Positions 3,364 to 7,601 of a stretch of DNA of 23,128 bases are shown in pieces. Numbering within the stretch: the stretch's first letter is position 1; each line of letters starts with the position of its first letter. The DNA is from a virus: IMG/VR virus record IMGVR_UViG_3300022602_000446, positions 1 to 23,128 of that record; one strand, written 5' to 3'. The notes under the pieces are model-generated. The model had not been told where the DNA came from and searched no databases. It saw only the letters and a list, made by a program, of their open reading frames with translations. The translations under genes were made by a program, and so were the position numbers.

Positions 3364-3795
3364 TTACATTCCTTTTAAGTGTTTAAATAATTCTTCGGGT
3401 GTGTCAAAACCAATTACTTGTGGATATTCAGTAAGCAACCTATCACGCTCTCGCTCTGCTTCAACTGGATTAGCCCAATGTATACGACTACGCAACTGCT
3501 CAATAGTCATCTTAGGTTCAACTGAATCACCATTAGCATCGCAACCTAATACCAGACCGCAACCAGCAAGCATTACATATTTGCTAAGATCACCGTTCTC
3601 GTGAGTTACATAAAAGAAGTCTTGGTTTTCTTTAAGCAAACCTTCGTCATCAACAAACACGCCATCATCATCGCCAGTAAGAGTTACTACTGTGAAGATG
3701 TCATAATTGCAAAGTTTATGGATGTCGTGATAATCACCTGAATAATCTATTTGCTCGATTGTTTTTGTTGTAGGGTTAATTAAATATGCTTTCAT
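3364..3795 (-). CDS. Hypothetical protein resembling DUF3846-type phage proteins
   Basis: 143 residues. The opening MKAYLINPTTKTIEQIDYSG, the strand-rich middle with VFVDDEGLLKENQDFF, and the glycine block GCGLVLGCDANGD resemble the small DUF3846 domain found in plasmid and phage proteins. This is recalled pattern similarity, not a search. The C-terminus is helical and charged (PVEAERERDRLL). No catalytic motif is seen. It starts after GAAAGCGAAC, and the flanking sequence TCGCTTTCAATGTTTA (plus strand 3803-3818) is repeated exactly at 2623-2638. Confidence 0.6.
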   Translation of the reverse strand: MKAYLINPTTKTIEQIDYSGDYHDIHKLCNYDIFTVVTLTGDDDGVFVDDEGLLKENQDFFYVTHENGDLSKYVMLAGCGLVLGCDANGDSVEPKMTIEQLRSRIHWANPVEAERERDRLLTEYPQVIGFDTPEELFKHLKGM

Positions 3796-4110: not shown

Positions 4111-4989
4111 TTAAACTCCTTCAAATTGTTGTGGCTCGATCTGAGCCATTACTGAATCAATCCATGCTTCGGCAGATTGCTTGTCGTTTACTTCAGGTTG
4201 AACAAATGCGTTCTCGCTGATCGGCAACTTCTTGACACCCTCTACCATCACGCTAGTAGAGTTACTACCTAAACCATCACGACATTCCATGCCACGCAAA
4301 TCAGATTCACAAATCAAACCACCATGAAACTGAACACGCTTGTAAGCAGGCATCGCAATCAAACTAGCCAAGGCTGAAGTATCAAGCGGTTGATCTTCGG
4401 CTTTGATCTCAACAAACTGGGCAAGTGATACACCGCTAGTGTTTTTGCCAATATCATGAGAACCAGCACCACCGTAGATTGCTACGCTATAACCAGCTTC
4501 AGATAATGCTTCGGCTAACTTGAGAACCGATGCACCACGATAGAAAAGCTTACTAGCATTTTCACCAGCATTGCATGACAAGTTACAAACTAAAGCAACA
4601 GAACGGATACCGCCTGCTCTGCTTTGTCGTTTAGTCTTTGTCCAAGCCTTGGATAGATCACCACGATATACCGCATGGATGTCTAACTCATCACCTTGAT
4701 CTGCACGGATACGCTTTTTGCGTAAACTGGTTGGCTGGATTTCTTTGGTAGCAATCTCACGCAACTTGTCAACACCTTCGCCCCAACCAAACTTGAGCCG
4801 TTCTTCGTACTGAGCCTGACTATCAGCACCAAACCAACGCTGTGAATCATCTTGATCATAATGATGCCGTTTAGTTACTGAATTAAATAAGTGCTCATTA
4901 TCAGAATTAGAGAACTTAGGTGATGTTGTCGGTTCAAAAAGTGAATCGTACAAAACTACTGTAGATTTTTTATCGGCAATTCTTAACAT
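4111..4989 (-). CDS. VWA-like (CobT-like) partner of the AAA+ ATPase
   Basis: 292 residues. The region 129-175 (IRSVALVCNLSCNAGENA, RGASVLKLAEALSEAGYSVA, IYGG) matches the first Rossmann half of a von Willebrand A domain as in CobT/ViaA-type proteins that pair with MoxR/CobS ATPases. The usual metal-binding DxSxS is replaced by N136-L-S138-C-N140, so metal binding may be altered or lost. The N-terminal 120 residues are charged with a basic stretch (SLRKKRIRAD). It lies directly downstream of the ATPase gene with a 21-nt gap and an AGGAGAG ribosome binding site, supporting a two-component complex. Related phage proteins are often labelled CobT, but cobalt chelation is not implied. Substrate unknown. 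Confidence 0.65.
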   Translation of the reverse strand: MLRIADKKSTVVLYDSLFEPTTSPKFSNSDNEHLFNSVTKRHHYDQDDSQRWFGADSQAQYEERLKFGWGEGVDKLREIATKEIQPTSLRKKRIRADQGDELDIHAVYRGDLSKAWTKTKRQSRAGGIRSVALVCNLSCNAGENASKLFYRGASVLKLAEALSEAGYSVAIYGGAGSHDIGKNTSGVSLAQFVEIKAEDQPLDTSALASLIAMPAYKRVQFHGGLICESDLRGMECRDGLGSNSTSVMVEGVKKLPISENAFVQPEVNDKQSAEAWIDSVMAQIEPQQFEGV

Positions 4990-5010
4990 GATTAACTCTC
5001 CTATAAATGA

Positions 5011-6150
5011 TTAAGCAGAAACCTTGACACGCTCATCGTCTTTCCAGCCAATGAAATAAGTATCTTGAATATCCTGCAATGATTCGCCAGCTTGAATTAA
5101 CTTCGTTGCATCTAACATGAAACGAGTAGACATCACACGATTAAGTCTTGCTGATTCAATACGCTTACGAACATCTAAAGCCCAGCTAAATACTTCAGCA
5201 TCAACCGCTTGCTTTTCAAACTGAATGTCATAACCTAGTTTGACGATACCAGCACGAAAACGATCAAGGGTAGATTCATCTAAACGCTCACGACCTGAAT
5301 AAACCATGTTAGAACCTGTGCCGTATGTATTGGCAGCACCGATACAGATAAAGTCAGGATGACGCTTTACATAAGTAGCACCCTTACGCTGTGGAAGATT
5401 GAAACCGCCATTAGCAAGTGCTTGATTAACAAACAATAAAGTGTTCGGATCTGCCGCATCAATCTCGTCAAACAAGAACACACCACCAGTTTCGTACATC
5501 GTTACAAAATCAGATGGAACATATTCAAATGCACCGCCATCGCTTGGCAACAACCAACCTTGCAATGCACTCTCGCTCATTCCTGCTGTGCAAGATACTG
5601 AAGCAAACTGTCTACCCATCGCATCGGCTACTTGATGTGCTAGGTGTGTCTTACCGCATCCTGCTGGACCGACTAACAAAATATTGATACCGCATGAAGC
5701 TTTACGAAGGATTCCCTCAAACTCAGGGCGAACATAGCAATCCTTGATCGTATACTTGGAAAGATCAGGGCGATGAATAACAATCTCTCTCGGTGCTGCA
5801 TTGGATAACTCAGACTTGATAATCTTACGAACCGCATCTTCATCGACACCGCCCTTGCTATTTTTGAGAAGATCAAGCAAAGCCATCGCTTGCTCTAGGT
5901 CGCTGGACATCTTGGCTTGAGTTTGCTTTACCTCGGCAACATCATCGGCTTCCTCAAAGCCTAACTCGCCATCGGCAATCAAGGCATCAATAGCACCCTG
6001 AACAATCTCAGGGTAGAAATGCTCGGTAATGCTATCTAAGATTACCTTTTTGGTTTTCCTAGCGTAATCGCCTAGGGATACATCTAATTTCTTCGCTAAC
6101 AAGATCAAAGCTGATTTGTCTAAGTCGTTGATTGTGATTTGAATAGTCAT
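5011..6150 (-). CDS. MoxR/CobS-type AAA+ ATPase
   Basis: 379 residues. Residues 1-60 form a small helical N-terminal domain, followed by an acidic linker (61-110). The AAA+ core has Walker A GPAGCGKT (161-168), Walker B VFLFDEID (224-231), sensor-1 region GAANTYGTGS (271-280, Asn274), an arginine finger in DRFR (297-300) and a sensor-2-like STRFML (341-346). Length and motifs fit the CobS/MoxR branch, which remodels protein complexes with a VWA partner; that partner is the next gene. First gene of the leftward operon, with AGGAG 9 nt before the ATG. A long structured leader and an operator-flanked promoter lie upstream, so expression is probably early and repressible. Confidence 0.88.
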   Translation of the reverse strand: MTIQITINDLDKSALILLAKKLDVSLGDYARKTKKVILDSITEHFYPEIVQGAIDALIADGELGFEEADDVAEVKQTQAKMSSDLEQAMALLDLLKNSKGGVDEDAVRKIIKSELSNAAPREIVIHRPDLSKYTIKDCYVRPEFEGILRKASCGINILLVGPAGCGKTHLAHQVADAMGRQFASVSCTAGMSESALQGWLLPSDGGAFEYVPSDFVTMYETGGVFLFDEIDAADPNTLLFVNQALANGGFNLPQRKGATYVKRHPDFICIGAANTYGTGSNMVYSGRERLDESTLDRFRAGIVKLGYDIQFEKQAVDAEVFSWALDVRKRIESARLNRVMSTRFMLDATKLIQAGESLQDIQDTYFIGWKDDERVKVSA

Positions 6151-6183
6151 GATTTAAAACTCCTATGGGATGATTAAAAGAAT

Positions 6184-6296
6184 CGGTATTTATTAGATAC
6201 CGCATAAGGCTCGCTAAGTGAACCTTATGCGCTACCCACTAAAAAGTGAAATGCCAATAGCTACGCTACTGGACTTTGTAGTCTGCCGAGTTTCAC
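6184..6296 (-). promoter_or_regulatory. Structured 5' leader RNA of the leftward operon
   Basis: The leader predicted from the promoter at 6443 contains closely packed helices. They are CGGTAT/ATACCG (6184-6189/6197-6202), a 9-bp CGCATAAGG/CCTTATGCG stem (6201-6209/6223-6231), CACT/AGTG with an A4 loop (6237-6248), and a three-way junction closed by GTGAAA/TTTCAC (6246-6251/6291-6296) around TAGC/GCTA (6258-6268) and GACT/AGTC (6272-6283). The CACT/AGTG helix and the outer GTGAAA/TTTCAC helix share bases and exclude each other, a switch-like layout. A further GATTC/GAATC hairpin is at 6343-6360. It does not match a riboswitch class I know. No convincing ORF is present. Confidence 0.5.
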
Positions 6297-6428
6297 GACC
6301 CGTTGAGTAGAAATCCCTTGATTAAGTCTTTCGACACGCTTCGATTCGGAGTTCTGAATCTATCTCGGGGCTACTGCAACGCTTTAGGTATAGGCAATGG
6401 GTTTTTTGTACCGCTTACTTGTTTCCTG

Positions 6429-6443
6429 CTACCAATAGGGTAA
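6429..6443. promoter_or_regulatory. Operator-like repeat OL1: CTACC-AATAG-GGTAA
   Basis: Core TACC-AATAG-GGTA is identical to the site at 2026-2038. It covers the expected start point of the leftward promoter (-10 box at 6443-6448), a position at which a bound repressor would block initiation. Confidence 0.6.
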
Positions 6444-6448
6444 TTATA
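6443..6448 (-). promoter_or_regulatory. Leftward promoter -10 box (early operon)
   Basis: Perfect TATAAT on the minus strand; start expected near 6436, giving a leader of about 285 nt before the ATPase ATG at 6150. No good -35 hexamer is seen 16-18 bp upstream (TTACCA lies at 19 bp spacing), so the promoter may be weak alone or activated by a bound protein. The box sits between the two operator-like repeats. Confidence 0.5.
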
Positions 6449-6458
6449 CAGGGTAAAG

Positions 6459-6473
6459 CTACCAAAATGGTAA
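6459..6473. promoter_or_regulatory. Operator-like repeat OL2: CTACC-AAAAT-GGTAA
   Basis: Same TACC/GGTA arms with a different 5-bp spacer. Its centre is 30 bp from OL1, close to three helical turns, compatible with cooperative binding. It overlaps the -35 side of the leftward promoter. A half-site GGGTA (6452-6455 region) lies between the two. Confidence 0.6.
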
Positions 6474-6669
6474 TTTTAGGGGCATTTTTGCCACAGATTT
6501 AGAAAAAGTCTTTAAAATCAATGACTTACAGGGTTTTTTTAGGGGCTTAGGGGAGCTGACAGGTCAAAAGTGCCTATTTTTTAGGCAGAATACAGGGATT
6601 ATTAGGGTTTTCCCTATGTTTACCAGCAGGCAGGAATTTTGGGGGGATATTATCTCGGCTGGATTGATT
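6474..6669. other. Gene-free stretch with three small hairpins
   Basis: No gene is seen. Perfect small inverted repeats occur at 6481-6492 (GGCA/TGCC, T4 loop), 6571-6587 (TGCCTA/TAGGCA, T5 loop) and 6603-6616 (TAGGG/CCCTA, T4 loop). TACAGGG recurs at 6447, 6527 and 6591. Together with the large hairpin to the right it forms a repeat-dense control region. Confidence 0.4.
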
Positions 6670-6779
6670 AACAGTTTTAATTAACAGTTTATCTCTCGTT
6701 TTTATATCTTCTCTCTATTATATAGAGAGAAGATATAAAGTTACTTCAAACTGTTCGCAACTGTAAAGTTAAAACTGTT
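6670..6779. repeat. Perfect 18-bp hairpin flanked by AACAGTTT inverted clusters; candidate origin
   Basis: Arms 6701-6718 and 6722-6739 are perfect complements with a 3-nt loop. Left of it AACAGTTT occurs at 6670-6677 and 6683-6690. To the right the complement AAACTGTT occurs at 6748-6755 and 6772-6779, plus a partial AACTGTA at 6759-6765. The whole is roughly symmetrical about the hairpin and AT-rich. Such an arrangement suits an origin or multimeric protein-binding site in the divergent control region. Function is inference. Confidence 0.5.
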
Positions 6780-6834
6780 CACTATAAAGTTATTATTTAT
6801 TATCTGTTCTCGCTGTAGGTGAATATACCAATTC

Positions 6835-6862
6835 AATATTATTTTGATTATGAGATAATATT
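6835..6862 (+). promoter_or_regulatory. Inverted repeat just upstream of the PAPS-reductase-like gene
   Basis: AATATTAT (6835-6842) and ATAATATT (6855-6862) are perfect 8-bp complements with a 12-nt loop, ending 5 nt before the AAGGGAG ribosome binding site. It could modulate translation or bind a regulator; all A-T pairs, so a weak RNA hairpin. Confidence 0.3.
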
Positions 6863-6878
6863 AACTAAGGGAGATTGT

Positions 6879-7601
6879 ATGATTCATTTTGAAAGAGCAA
6901 AAAATTCTGAAGAAGTTATTCAGCAGATCAGAGGAGTAACCCCTGACACGCTACTAGCTTTTTCTTGCGGTAAGGATTCAATAGCATCATGGCTGGCAAT
7001 CAGAGATCACTTCGATACCATTGTTCCGTTCTATATGTATTTGATTCCCGGCAATTTATCATTCATTGAAGAATCGCTTCAATACTATGAAGATTTCTTT
7101 GATACCAAAATAGTAAGGATGCCACACGATTCCCTATACAGGATGCTCAATGGCATGACCTTCCAGCCACCTGAAAGACTTCGGTTTATGCAAAAGCTAG
7201 ACCTGCAAGAGCCAAACAGGGAAGACACGGCTTATGCCGTTGCTTATGACAATGATTTAGACCCTGATGTAGTCTTTACTGCAATCGGGGTTAGACAGAA
7301 CGATTCAATTCAACGCAGGTTAGCCATTCAAAAGCATGGGGCTATCAATACCACTCAAAGGCATTACTATCCCGTCTATGACTGGTCAAAGCAAAGGCTT
7401 ATTGATGAGATTAAAAAGGCAGGGGTAAAACTTCCAGTAGATTACAACCTATTCGGCAGAAGCTTTGACGGATTAGATTTAAGATTTATTTATCAGATTA
7501 AAAAGCATTACCCATTGGATTATCAAAAGATACTCGAATGGTTTCCATTAGTCGAAGTTGAAATATATAGATATGAATTTGCTATGAAAGGGCATACATA
7601 A
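6879..7601 (+). CDS. PAPS-reductase-like PP-loop protein
   Basis: 240 residues. The nucleotide-binding PP-loop is SCGKDS (29-34), with Cys in place of the usual Gly of SGGKDS. The downstream block GVRQNDSIQRR (137-147) and YYPVYDWS (163-170) fit the adenylyl-handling fold of the phosphoadenosine phosphosulfate reductase family, which includes DndC-like and many phage members. No C-terminal ECGLH-type reductase motif is visible, so sulfate reduction is doubtful and an adenylation or sulfur-transfer role is possible. The ATG at 6879 follows AAGGGAG; an upstream GTG at 6819 is in frame but lacks a ribosome binding site. It overlaps the next gene by one base (TAATG). Confidence 0.8.
   Translation: MIHFERAKNSEEVIQQIRGVTPDTLLAFSCGKDSIASWLAIRDHFDTIVPFYMYLIPGNLSFIEESLQYYEDFFDTKIVRMPHDSLYRMLNGMTFQPPERLRFMQKLDLQEPNREDTAYAVAYDNDLDPDVVFTAIGVRQNDSIQRRLAIQKHGAINTTQRHYYPVYDWSKQRLIDEIKKAGVKLPVDYNLFGRSFDGLDLRFIYQIKKHYPLDYQKILEWFPLVEVEIYRYEFAMKGHT

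Follow-up and report, generated by a model that had tools for sequence, protein, structure and literature searches.

Phage DUF7192 proteins and their MoxR-type ATPase: a putative NorQ-NorD-like remodelling pair with a degenerate metal site

Introduction

A MoxR-type AAA+ ATPase and a DUF7192 protein, encoded by adjacent phage genes, probably constitute a remodelling motor resembling NorQ-NorD and CbbQ-CbbO, which would operate early in infection and grip its target without the metal of a MIDAS. Computational analysis shows the fold of the partner protein and its homology to NorD at profile level, as well as the near-obligate pairing of the two genes and the loss of the MIDAS throughout the family. 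Hundreds of sequenced phages, among them staphylococcal and Listeria phages in wide use, carry the pair under names that are not supported. In the literature searched we found no biochemistry on DUF7192 proteins and no paper that names DUF7192; the NorQ-NorD-like reading gives this family a fold as well as a testable mechanism.

Results

The analysed DNA, hereafter the window, is the whole stretch of 23,128 nucleotides from a virus record (Table 1). The ATPase and DUF7192 genes are both located on its minus strand, the DUF7192 gene downstream and separated by a gap of 21 bp, and they are the first genes of a leftward arm. Both here and in many relatives, this arm is divergent from the genes for terminase and structural proteins. 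An earlier note on this DNA, made from the sequence alone, had described the two genes as the first of a repressible early operon. Their position at the head of the leftward arm is borne out, whereas the attribute 'repressible' derives solely from an operator-like palindrome between the divergent arms. In a 68% relative (L002), the corresponding site holds a perfect 16-bp palindrome whose sequence is related. The last 310 nt of the leader preceding the ATPase gene (6151-6460) fold better than shuffled sequences (z -3.3), and for a hairpin at 6189-6243, comparison with L002 by eye (two sequences only) suggests conservation through compensatory changes. Rfam families gave no match in the window. 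Judging from these sequence features, regulation of the arm that carries the pair is plausible. As to the neighbouring genes, a DUF3846 gene (3364-3795) lies downstream of the pair, several relatives (7 loci) have a similar gene close to their pair, and a PAPS-reductase-like gene (phrog_2302; 6819-7601) is the first of the opposite arm.

Table 1. Positions of the ATPase-DUF7192 pair, its predicted functional elements and the upstream region in the window.
Feature	Position	Strand	Basis
Analysed DNA	IMGVR_UViG_3300022602_000446, positions 1 to 23,128		virus record
AAA+ ATPase, CbbQ/NorQ (MoxR-type), 379 aa, N-terminal helical extension residues 1-120	5011..6150	-	PF07728 4.6e-21; phrog_249 2.5e-55; AF2 pLDDT 85; Foldseek best CbbQ and NorQ
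Walker A GPAGCGKT, residues 161-168	5647..5670	-	sequence and conserved columns
Helix-2 insert (H2i), residues 194-215, G-W-L-L-P where NorQ has GRxLL/I; predicted finger contact	5506..5571	-	conserved columns; NorQ H2i motif (PMC13036017); model strands E199-202 and E208-211
Walker B FLFDE, residues 225-229	5464..5478	-	sequence and conserved columns
Arginine finger R297	5260..5262	-	invariant in 36 sequences
Sensor-2 R343	5122..5124	-	invariant in 36 sequences
DUF7192 protein, 292 aa, predicted NorD-type VWA adaptor without intact MIDAS	4111..4989	-	PF23822 97.6 bits; AF2 pLDDT 89.3; Foldseek NorD E 3.2e-6; hhalign to NorD E 6.9e-9
Predicted pore-inserting finger, residues 88-121, tip G99-x3-D103-x2-A106	4627..4728	-	aligns with NorD fingertip G-x3-D-x2-A
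MIDAS-equivalent motif N-L-S-C-N, residues 136-140	4570..4584	-	alignment and NorD profile comparison
Invariant K196 (51/51), aligned to invariant NorD lysine of V-K-x-F	4402..4404	-	alignment and profile comparison
R218 (49/51), aligned to NorD arginine following the MIDAS threonine	4336..4338	-	alignment and profile comparison
Long untranslated leader of ATPase gene	6151..6700	-	~550 nt, inferred for a transcription start close to the palindrome
Perfect 18-bp inverted repeat, 3-nt spacer, candidate operator between the divergent arms	6701..6739	.	sequence

The 292-aa protein matches PF23822 (DUF7192) with 97.6 bits as compared to a gathering cut-off of 27, and all members of our alignment (51/51) match this family; further matches are phrog_35469 and phrog_1909. 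The VWA models of Pfam match neither the protein nor any of 50 relatives, and comparison of DUF7192 profiles with PDB sequences yielded chance matches only; NorD was reached solely through comparison of folds and of profile with profile. Since no VWA profile matches, the VWA assignment in the earlier note went beyond the sequence-profile evidence, and it was right nonetheless. An AlphaFold2 model built on the 51-sequence alignment (mean pLDDT 89.3) is predicted to adopt a VWA/Rossmann fold with NorD as best match. In the PDB, the six top Foldseek matches are NorD chains of NorQ-NorD complexes (best E 3.2e-6, prob 1.0), followed by von Willebrand A1 domains, and among viral models DUF7192 proteins come first, followed by phage CobT and VWFA proteins. 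The TM-scores to NorD are low (0.25-0.32, rmsd >11 A), as the domain fold agrees and the relative placement of the parts does not.

Alignment of the DUF7192 profile with a NorD/CbbO-like profile (A7), composed of plasmid-encoded proteins, using hhalign gave E 7e-8 for the whole profiles and 6.9e-9 upon trimming, with a score of 61.8. Controls scored lower, with a maximum of 23.1 over 100 column shuffles, 14.8 upon profile reversal and 12.6-17.2 against AAA profiles. Taken separately, the finger scored 29.0 (shuffle maximum 17.7) and the VWA part 33.4 (shuffle maximum 18.2). The register sets V-C-N-L-S-C-N of the window protein on the NorD strand L-V-D-V-S-L-S, placing N136-L-S-C-N140 on the MIDAS strand D-V-S-L-S, precisely as read in the earlier note, which had pointed out N-x-S-x-N where DxSxS is expected. 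Alignment to phage CobT-like proteins was not significant (probability 2-5%); the short stretch obtained, itself not significant, sets the same DUF7192 strand on DASGS. Because the AlphaFold match to the NorD fold, the profile alignment and the finger motif agree as three independent tests, the 292-aa protein is, as far as model and sequence profiles can tell, a VWA/Rossmann protein of the NorD type.

The best conserved segment of DUF7192 is the finger block D-Q-G-D-E-L-D-I-H-A-V-Y-R-G, which sits ahead of the MIDAS-equivalent strand, as in NorD. At the fingertip of the NorD/CbbO-like proteins (A7) G-x3-D-x2-A is invariant, and DUF7192 conserves these residues in NorD register, with G99 present in 51/51, D103 in 47/51 and A106 in 30/51 sequences. 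In NorD, remodelling requires the finger preceding the MIDAS strand, which enters the NorQ pore and contacts the helix-2 inserts, whereas MIDAS mutants still bind NorQ and have lost activation of the target enzyme (PMC13036017, PMC9976466). By analogy, the parts retained in DUF7192 appear to be those that couple to the motor. In a NorD-like adaptor, a hydrophobic C-terminal tail would additionally be expected to touch the post-sensor-1 loop of the ATPase. A C-terminal -AA was considered as a docking tail of this kind and dropped; many close relatives end in -AA and distant ones do not.

The MIDAS of VWA domains consists of DxSxS-T-D, and the window protein has NLSCN in place of DxSxS; our comparison covers this first motif and the threonine position. 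The degenerate metal site described in the earlier note is real, but it is not peculiar to this phage and extends through the family of 51 relatives. At the first position of the motif, 25 of these proteins carry D and 21 carry N, position 3 is S/T in only 8 and mostly G, A or C, the threonine position is occupied by F/Y in 39/51, and a complete D-x-[ST]-x-[ST] occurs in 1/51. The DUF7192 protein of phage phiM5 retains D-V-T-S-S at the first motif. The full MIDAS motif is also missing from distant DUF7192 proteins of Staphylococcus, Listeria, Mycobacterium and crAss-like phages. As read from the alignments, MIDAS loss is a trait of the whole DUF7192 family and not of this phage alone. Some residual metal binding is possible, because half of the family carries D at position 136. 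In a second phage ATPase clade (L082-L099), the downstream partners of ~660-720 aa keep D-A-S-G-S or D-V-S-G-S. These large partners also share a conserved HEGSH (HExxH-like) motif in their N-terminal half.

The ATPase carries all catalytic motifs, as the earlier note had stated: Walker A and B, sensor-1 (N274), sensor-2 and the arginine finger are present, and residues G161, G164, G166, K167, D228, N274, R297 and R343 show no variation across 36 relatives. It matches Pfam AAA_5 (PF07728) with 4.6e-21. All 21 top Foldseek matches of its AlphaFold2 model are CbbQ or NorQ proteins, with CbbQ being best (6l1q, E 5e-15). With the H2 insert and the CbbQ/NorQ fold in addition to the catalytic residues, the sequence and fold features of NorQ/CbbQ-type AAA+ proteins are present. 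An N-terminal SAP-like domain had been suspected by appearance and finds no support from profiles. In Sinorhizobium phage phiM5, a second ORF in another frame lies within the ATPase gene (L015:1349-1546) and is annotated as detected in the particle proteome.

From the designation 'MoxR/CobS-type' given in the earlier note, MoxR-type can be kept, whereas CobS has to be replaced by CbbQ/NorQ-like. The ATPase reaches 20.7 bits with the CobS equivalog TIGR01650 as compared to a cut-off of 558.55, CobS is missing from the 50 best Foldseek matches, and identity with CobS was rejected on these grounds. Phage homologues of the ATPase are often annotated as 'CobS' or 'porphyrin biosynthesis', labels that are not supported for this family. 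Together with the published proposal that viral cobST hijack CobN (Liu et al. 2021, PMC8651126), these names would speak for a chelatase, in which the pair acts as CobS-CobT, joins host CobN, inserts cobalt and thereby raises cobalamin supply. Upregulation of Listeria cobalamin genes after infection by a P100-like phage would also fit, although the authors of that study favour a general stress response. However, apart from the poor score with the CobS model and the absence of CobS folds, the MIDAS (DASGS) of phage CobT-like partners is lost in DUF7192, to which the non-significant profile alignment adds, and CobN is absent from the window. Moreover, 236 staphylococcal phage records carry the pair, although staphylococci are not known to have a cobalamin pathway. 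A chelatase function is thus highly improbable.

Across 71 distinct loci, DUF7192 is found on the same strand beside the ATPase in 68, with a median gap of 1 bp. Eight of the 71 loci were fetched via DUF7192, and the unbiased count is 60/63. Two of the three unpaired loci end just past the ATPase gene, while in the remaining one (L076) the ATPase frame is fragmentary. Pairing of ATPase and DUF7192 is almost obligate. The MoxR-VWA pairing put forward in the earlier note is strongly supported, and neither of the two results that the note had named as refuting it, a predicted structure lacking a Rossmann-like VWA fold and homologues that never co-occur, was obtained. The ATPase is found in 236 staphylococcal, 70 Listeria and 82 Mycobacterium phage records among those deposited, and DUF7192 in 236, 70 and 88, respectively, an agreement by count. 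Pairing is not strictly 1:1, as Faith1-like mycobacteriophages carry a second DUF7192 gene. In Mycobacterium phage Faith1 itself, this gene (L126:7485-8336) is diverged and the stretch holds no second ATPase gene, possibly reflecting two adaptors for one motor. In Acinetobacter phages, among them Mithridates (L009:6860-7735), a reverse-strand ORF lies between the two genes. The DUF7192 proteins of two Planctomycetota MAG contigs (L101, L104) measure ~380 aa and have an N-terminal extension, which in L104 has C-x2-C pairs and a zinc-ribbon-like look. In a tree of the ATPases, all DUF7192-partnered members (38/38) fall on one side of a single branch (SH-aLRT 97), apart from ATPases with MIDAS-bearing CobT-like partners; some branches are long, which makes finer placement unsure, and halovirus HHTV-2 contributed its ATPase only.

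This distribution bears on a role in defence or anti-defence, suggested in the earlier note, in which case the motor would disarm a host immune complex or exclude other phages. The early position of the pair and its spread over unrelated phages are in line with such a role, as are the MoxR-vWA modules reported from bacterial conflict systems (PMC7159879). However, PADLOC returned generic P-loop similarity only, no other gene is constantly associated with the pair, and near-fixed presence in whole genera (236 staphylococcal and 70 Listeria records) would rather be expected of a core function than of a variable one. We consider a defence or anti-defence role conceivable but unlikely.

A third possibility is that the motor serves as a chaperone which helps to build capsid or tail, as has been proposed for the related MoxR-vWA pair of jumbo phages (PMC7824862). 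An LC-MS/MS list of fRuSau02 particles includes RS_048, a protein of 372 aa that is apparently the ATPase by length and gene order. However, ribonucleotide reductase and sigma factors also appear on this list, whose authors consider carry-over possible. A table for CsCl-purified Listeria phage has no unassigned entry at ~37 kDa, the size expected for the ATPase; gene numbers in this table are unmatched. Furthermore, in the window as in many relatives, the pair resides in the early/replication arm, which runs opposite to the terminase and structural genes. In crAss phage cr10_1 it sits among replication genes, and in Staphylococcus phage 515A1 it maps to 19.4-21.4 kb, outside the zone of 36-66 kb where most late promoters are located. 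Virion assembly is therefore an improbable task for the pair. From gene position, the pair is most likely expressed early. As its target we favour a complex of the host, or one that serves phage replication or transcription, over a virion part.

Discussion

Taken together, our data favour a NorQ-NorD-like remodelling motor. By analogy to NorQ-NorD, the ATPase would assemble into a hexameric ring, on which a single DUF7192 protein may be placed such that its finger (residues ~88-121) reaches into the pore and is gripped there by the helix-2 inserts. Turning and pulling of the finger would be driven by ATP hydrolysis and would carry the VWA body along. DUF7192 most likely holds its target through non-MIDAS surfaces, the N-terminal 75 residues being a candidate, and in this way ATP may be used to force open or dismantle a protein complex early in infection. 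Such a grip is likely because the MIDAS is lost family-wide, while the finger, K196, R218 and a G-L-G segment are kept.

Tentatively, DUF7192 could represent a phage-specific class of MIDAS-independent VWA adaptors, in which the metal grip has been lost or replaced and the ATP-driven finger is kept. The pair might then be a portable two-gene machine that dismantles or activates a conserved complex across Staphylococcus, Listeria, Mycobacterium and the hosts of gut phages. The family is a natural experiment that may tell the parts of MoxR-VWA systems serving force transmission (finger) from those serving target grip (MIDAS). Identification of the target would point to a complex whose remodelling is required by many unrelated phages.

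Comparison with known systems

NorQ-NorD of Paracoccus and Jhaorihella activates nitric oxide reductase, and machines of this kind open up enzymes so that metals can be inserted. The phage pair shares with it the ATPase fold, the VWA fold, a finger that bears G-x3-D-x2-A and precedes the MIDAS strand, the conserved lysine and arginine, and a gene order in which the ATPase gene is immediately upstream of the VWA gene. It differs in that the MIDAS is lost, that the partner measures 292 as compared to ~630 aa and is devoid of the long N-terminal domain and linker, and that the pair is phage-borne with no nitric oxide reductase context. The rubisco activase CbbQ-CbbO provides the best fold match of the phage ATPase (CbbQ, 6l1q), whereas the phage pair has no rubisco context and its partner no MIDAS; CbbO entered this comparison only within the NorD/CbbO-like profile. 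The CobS-CobT-like pairs of cyanophages, T4-like contigs and haloviruses likewise combine a MoxR-type ATPase with an adjacent VWA protein in tailed viruses. However, their partners of ~660-740 aa carry an intact DASGS or DWSGS, and their ATPases form a separate clade. RavA-ViaA, which is likened here from the literature, similarly joins a MoxR ATPase to a VWA cofactor.
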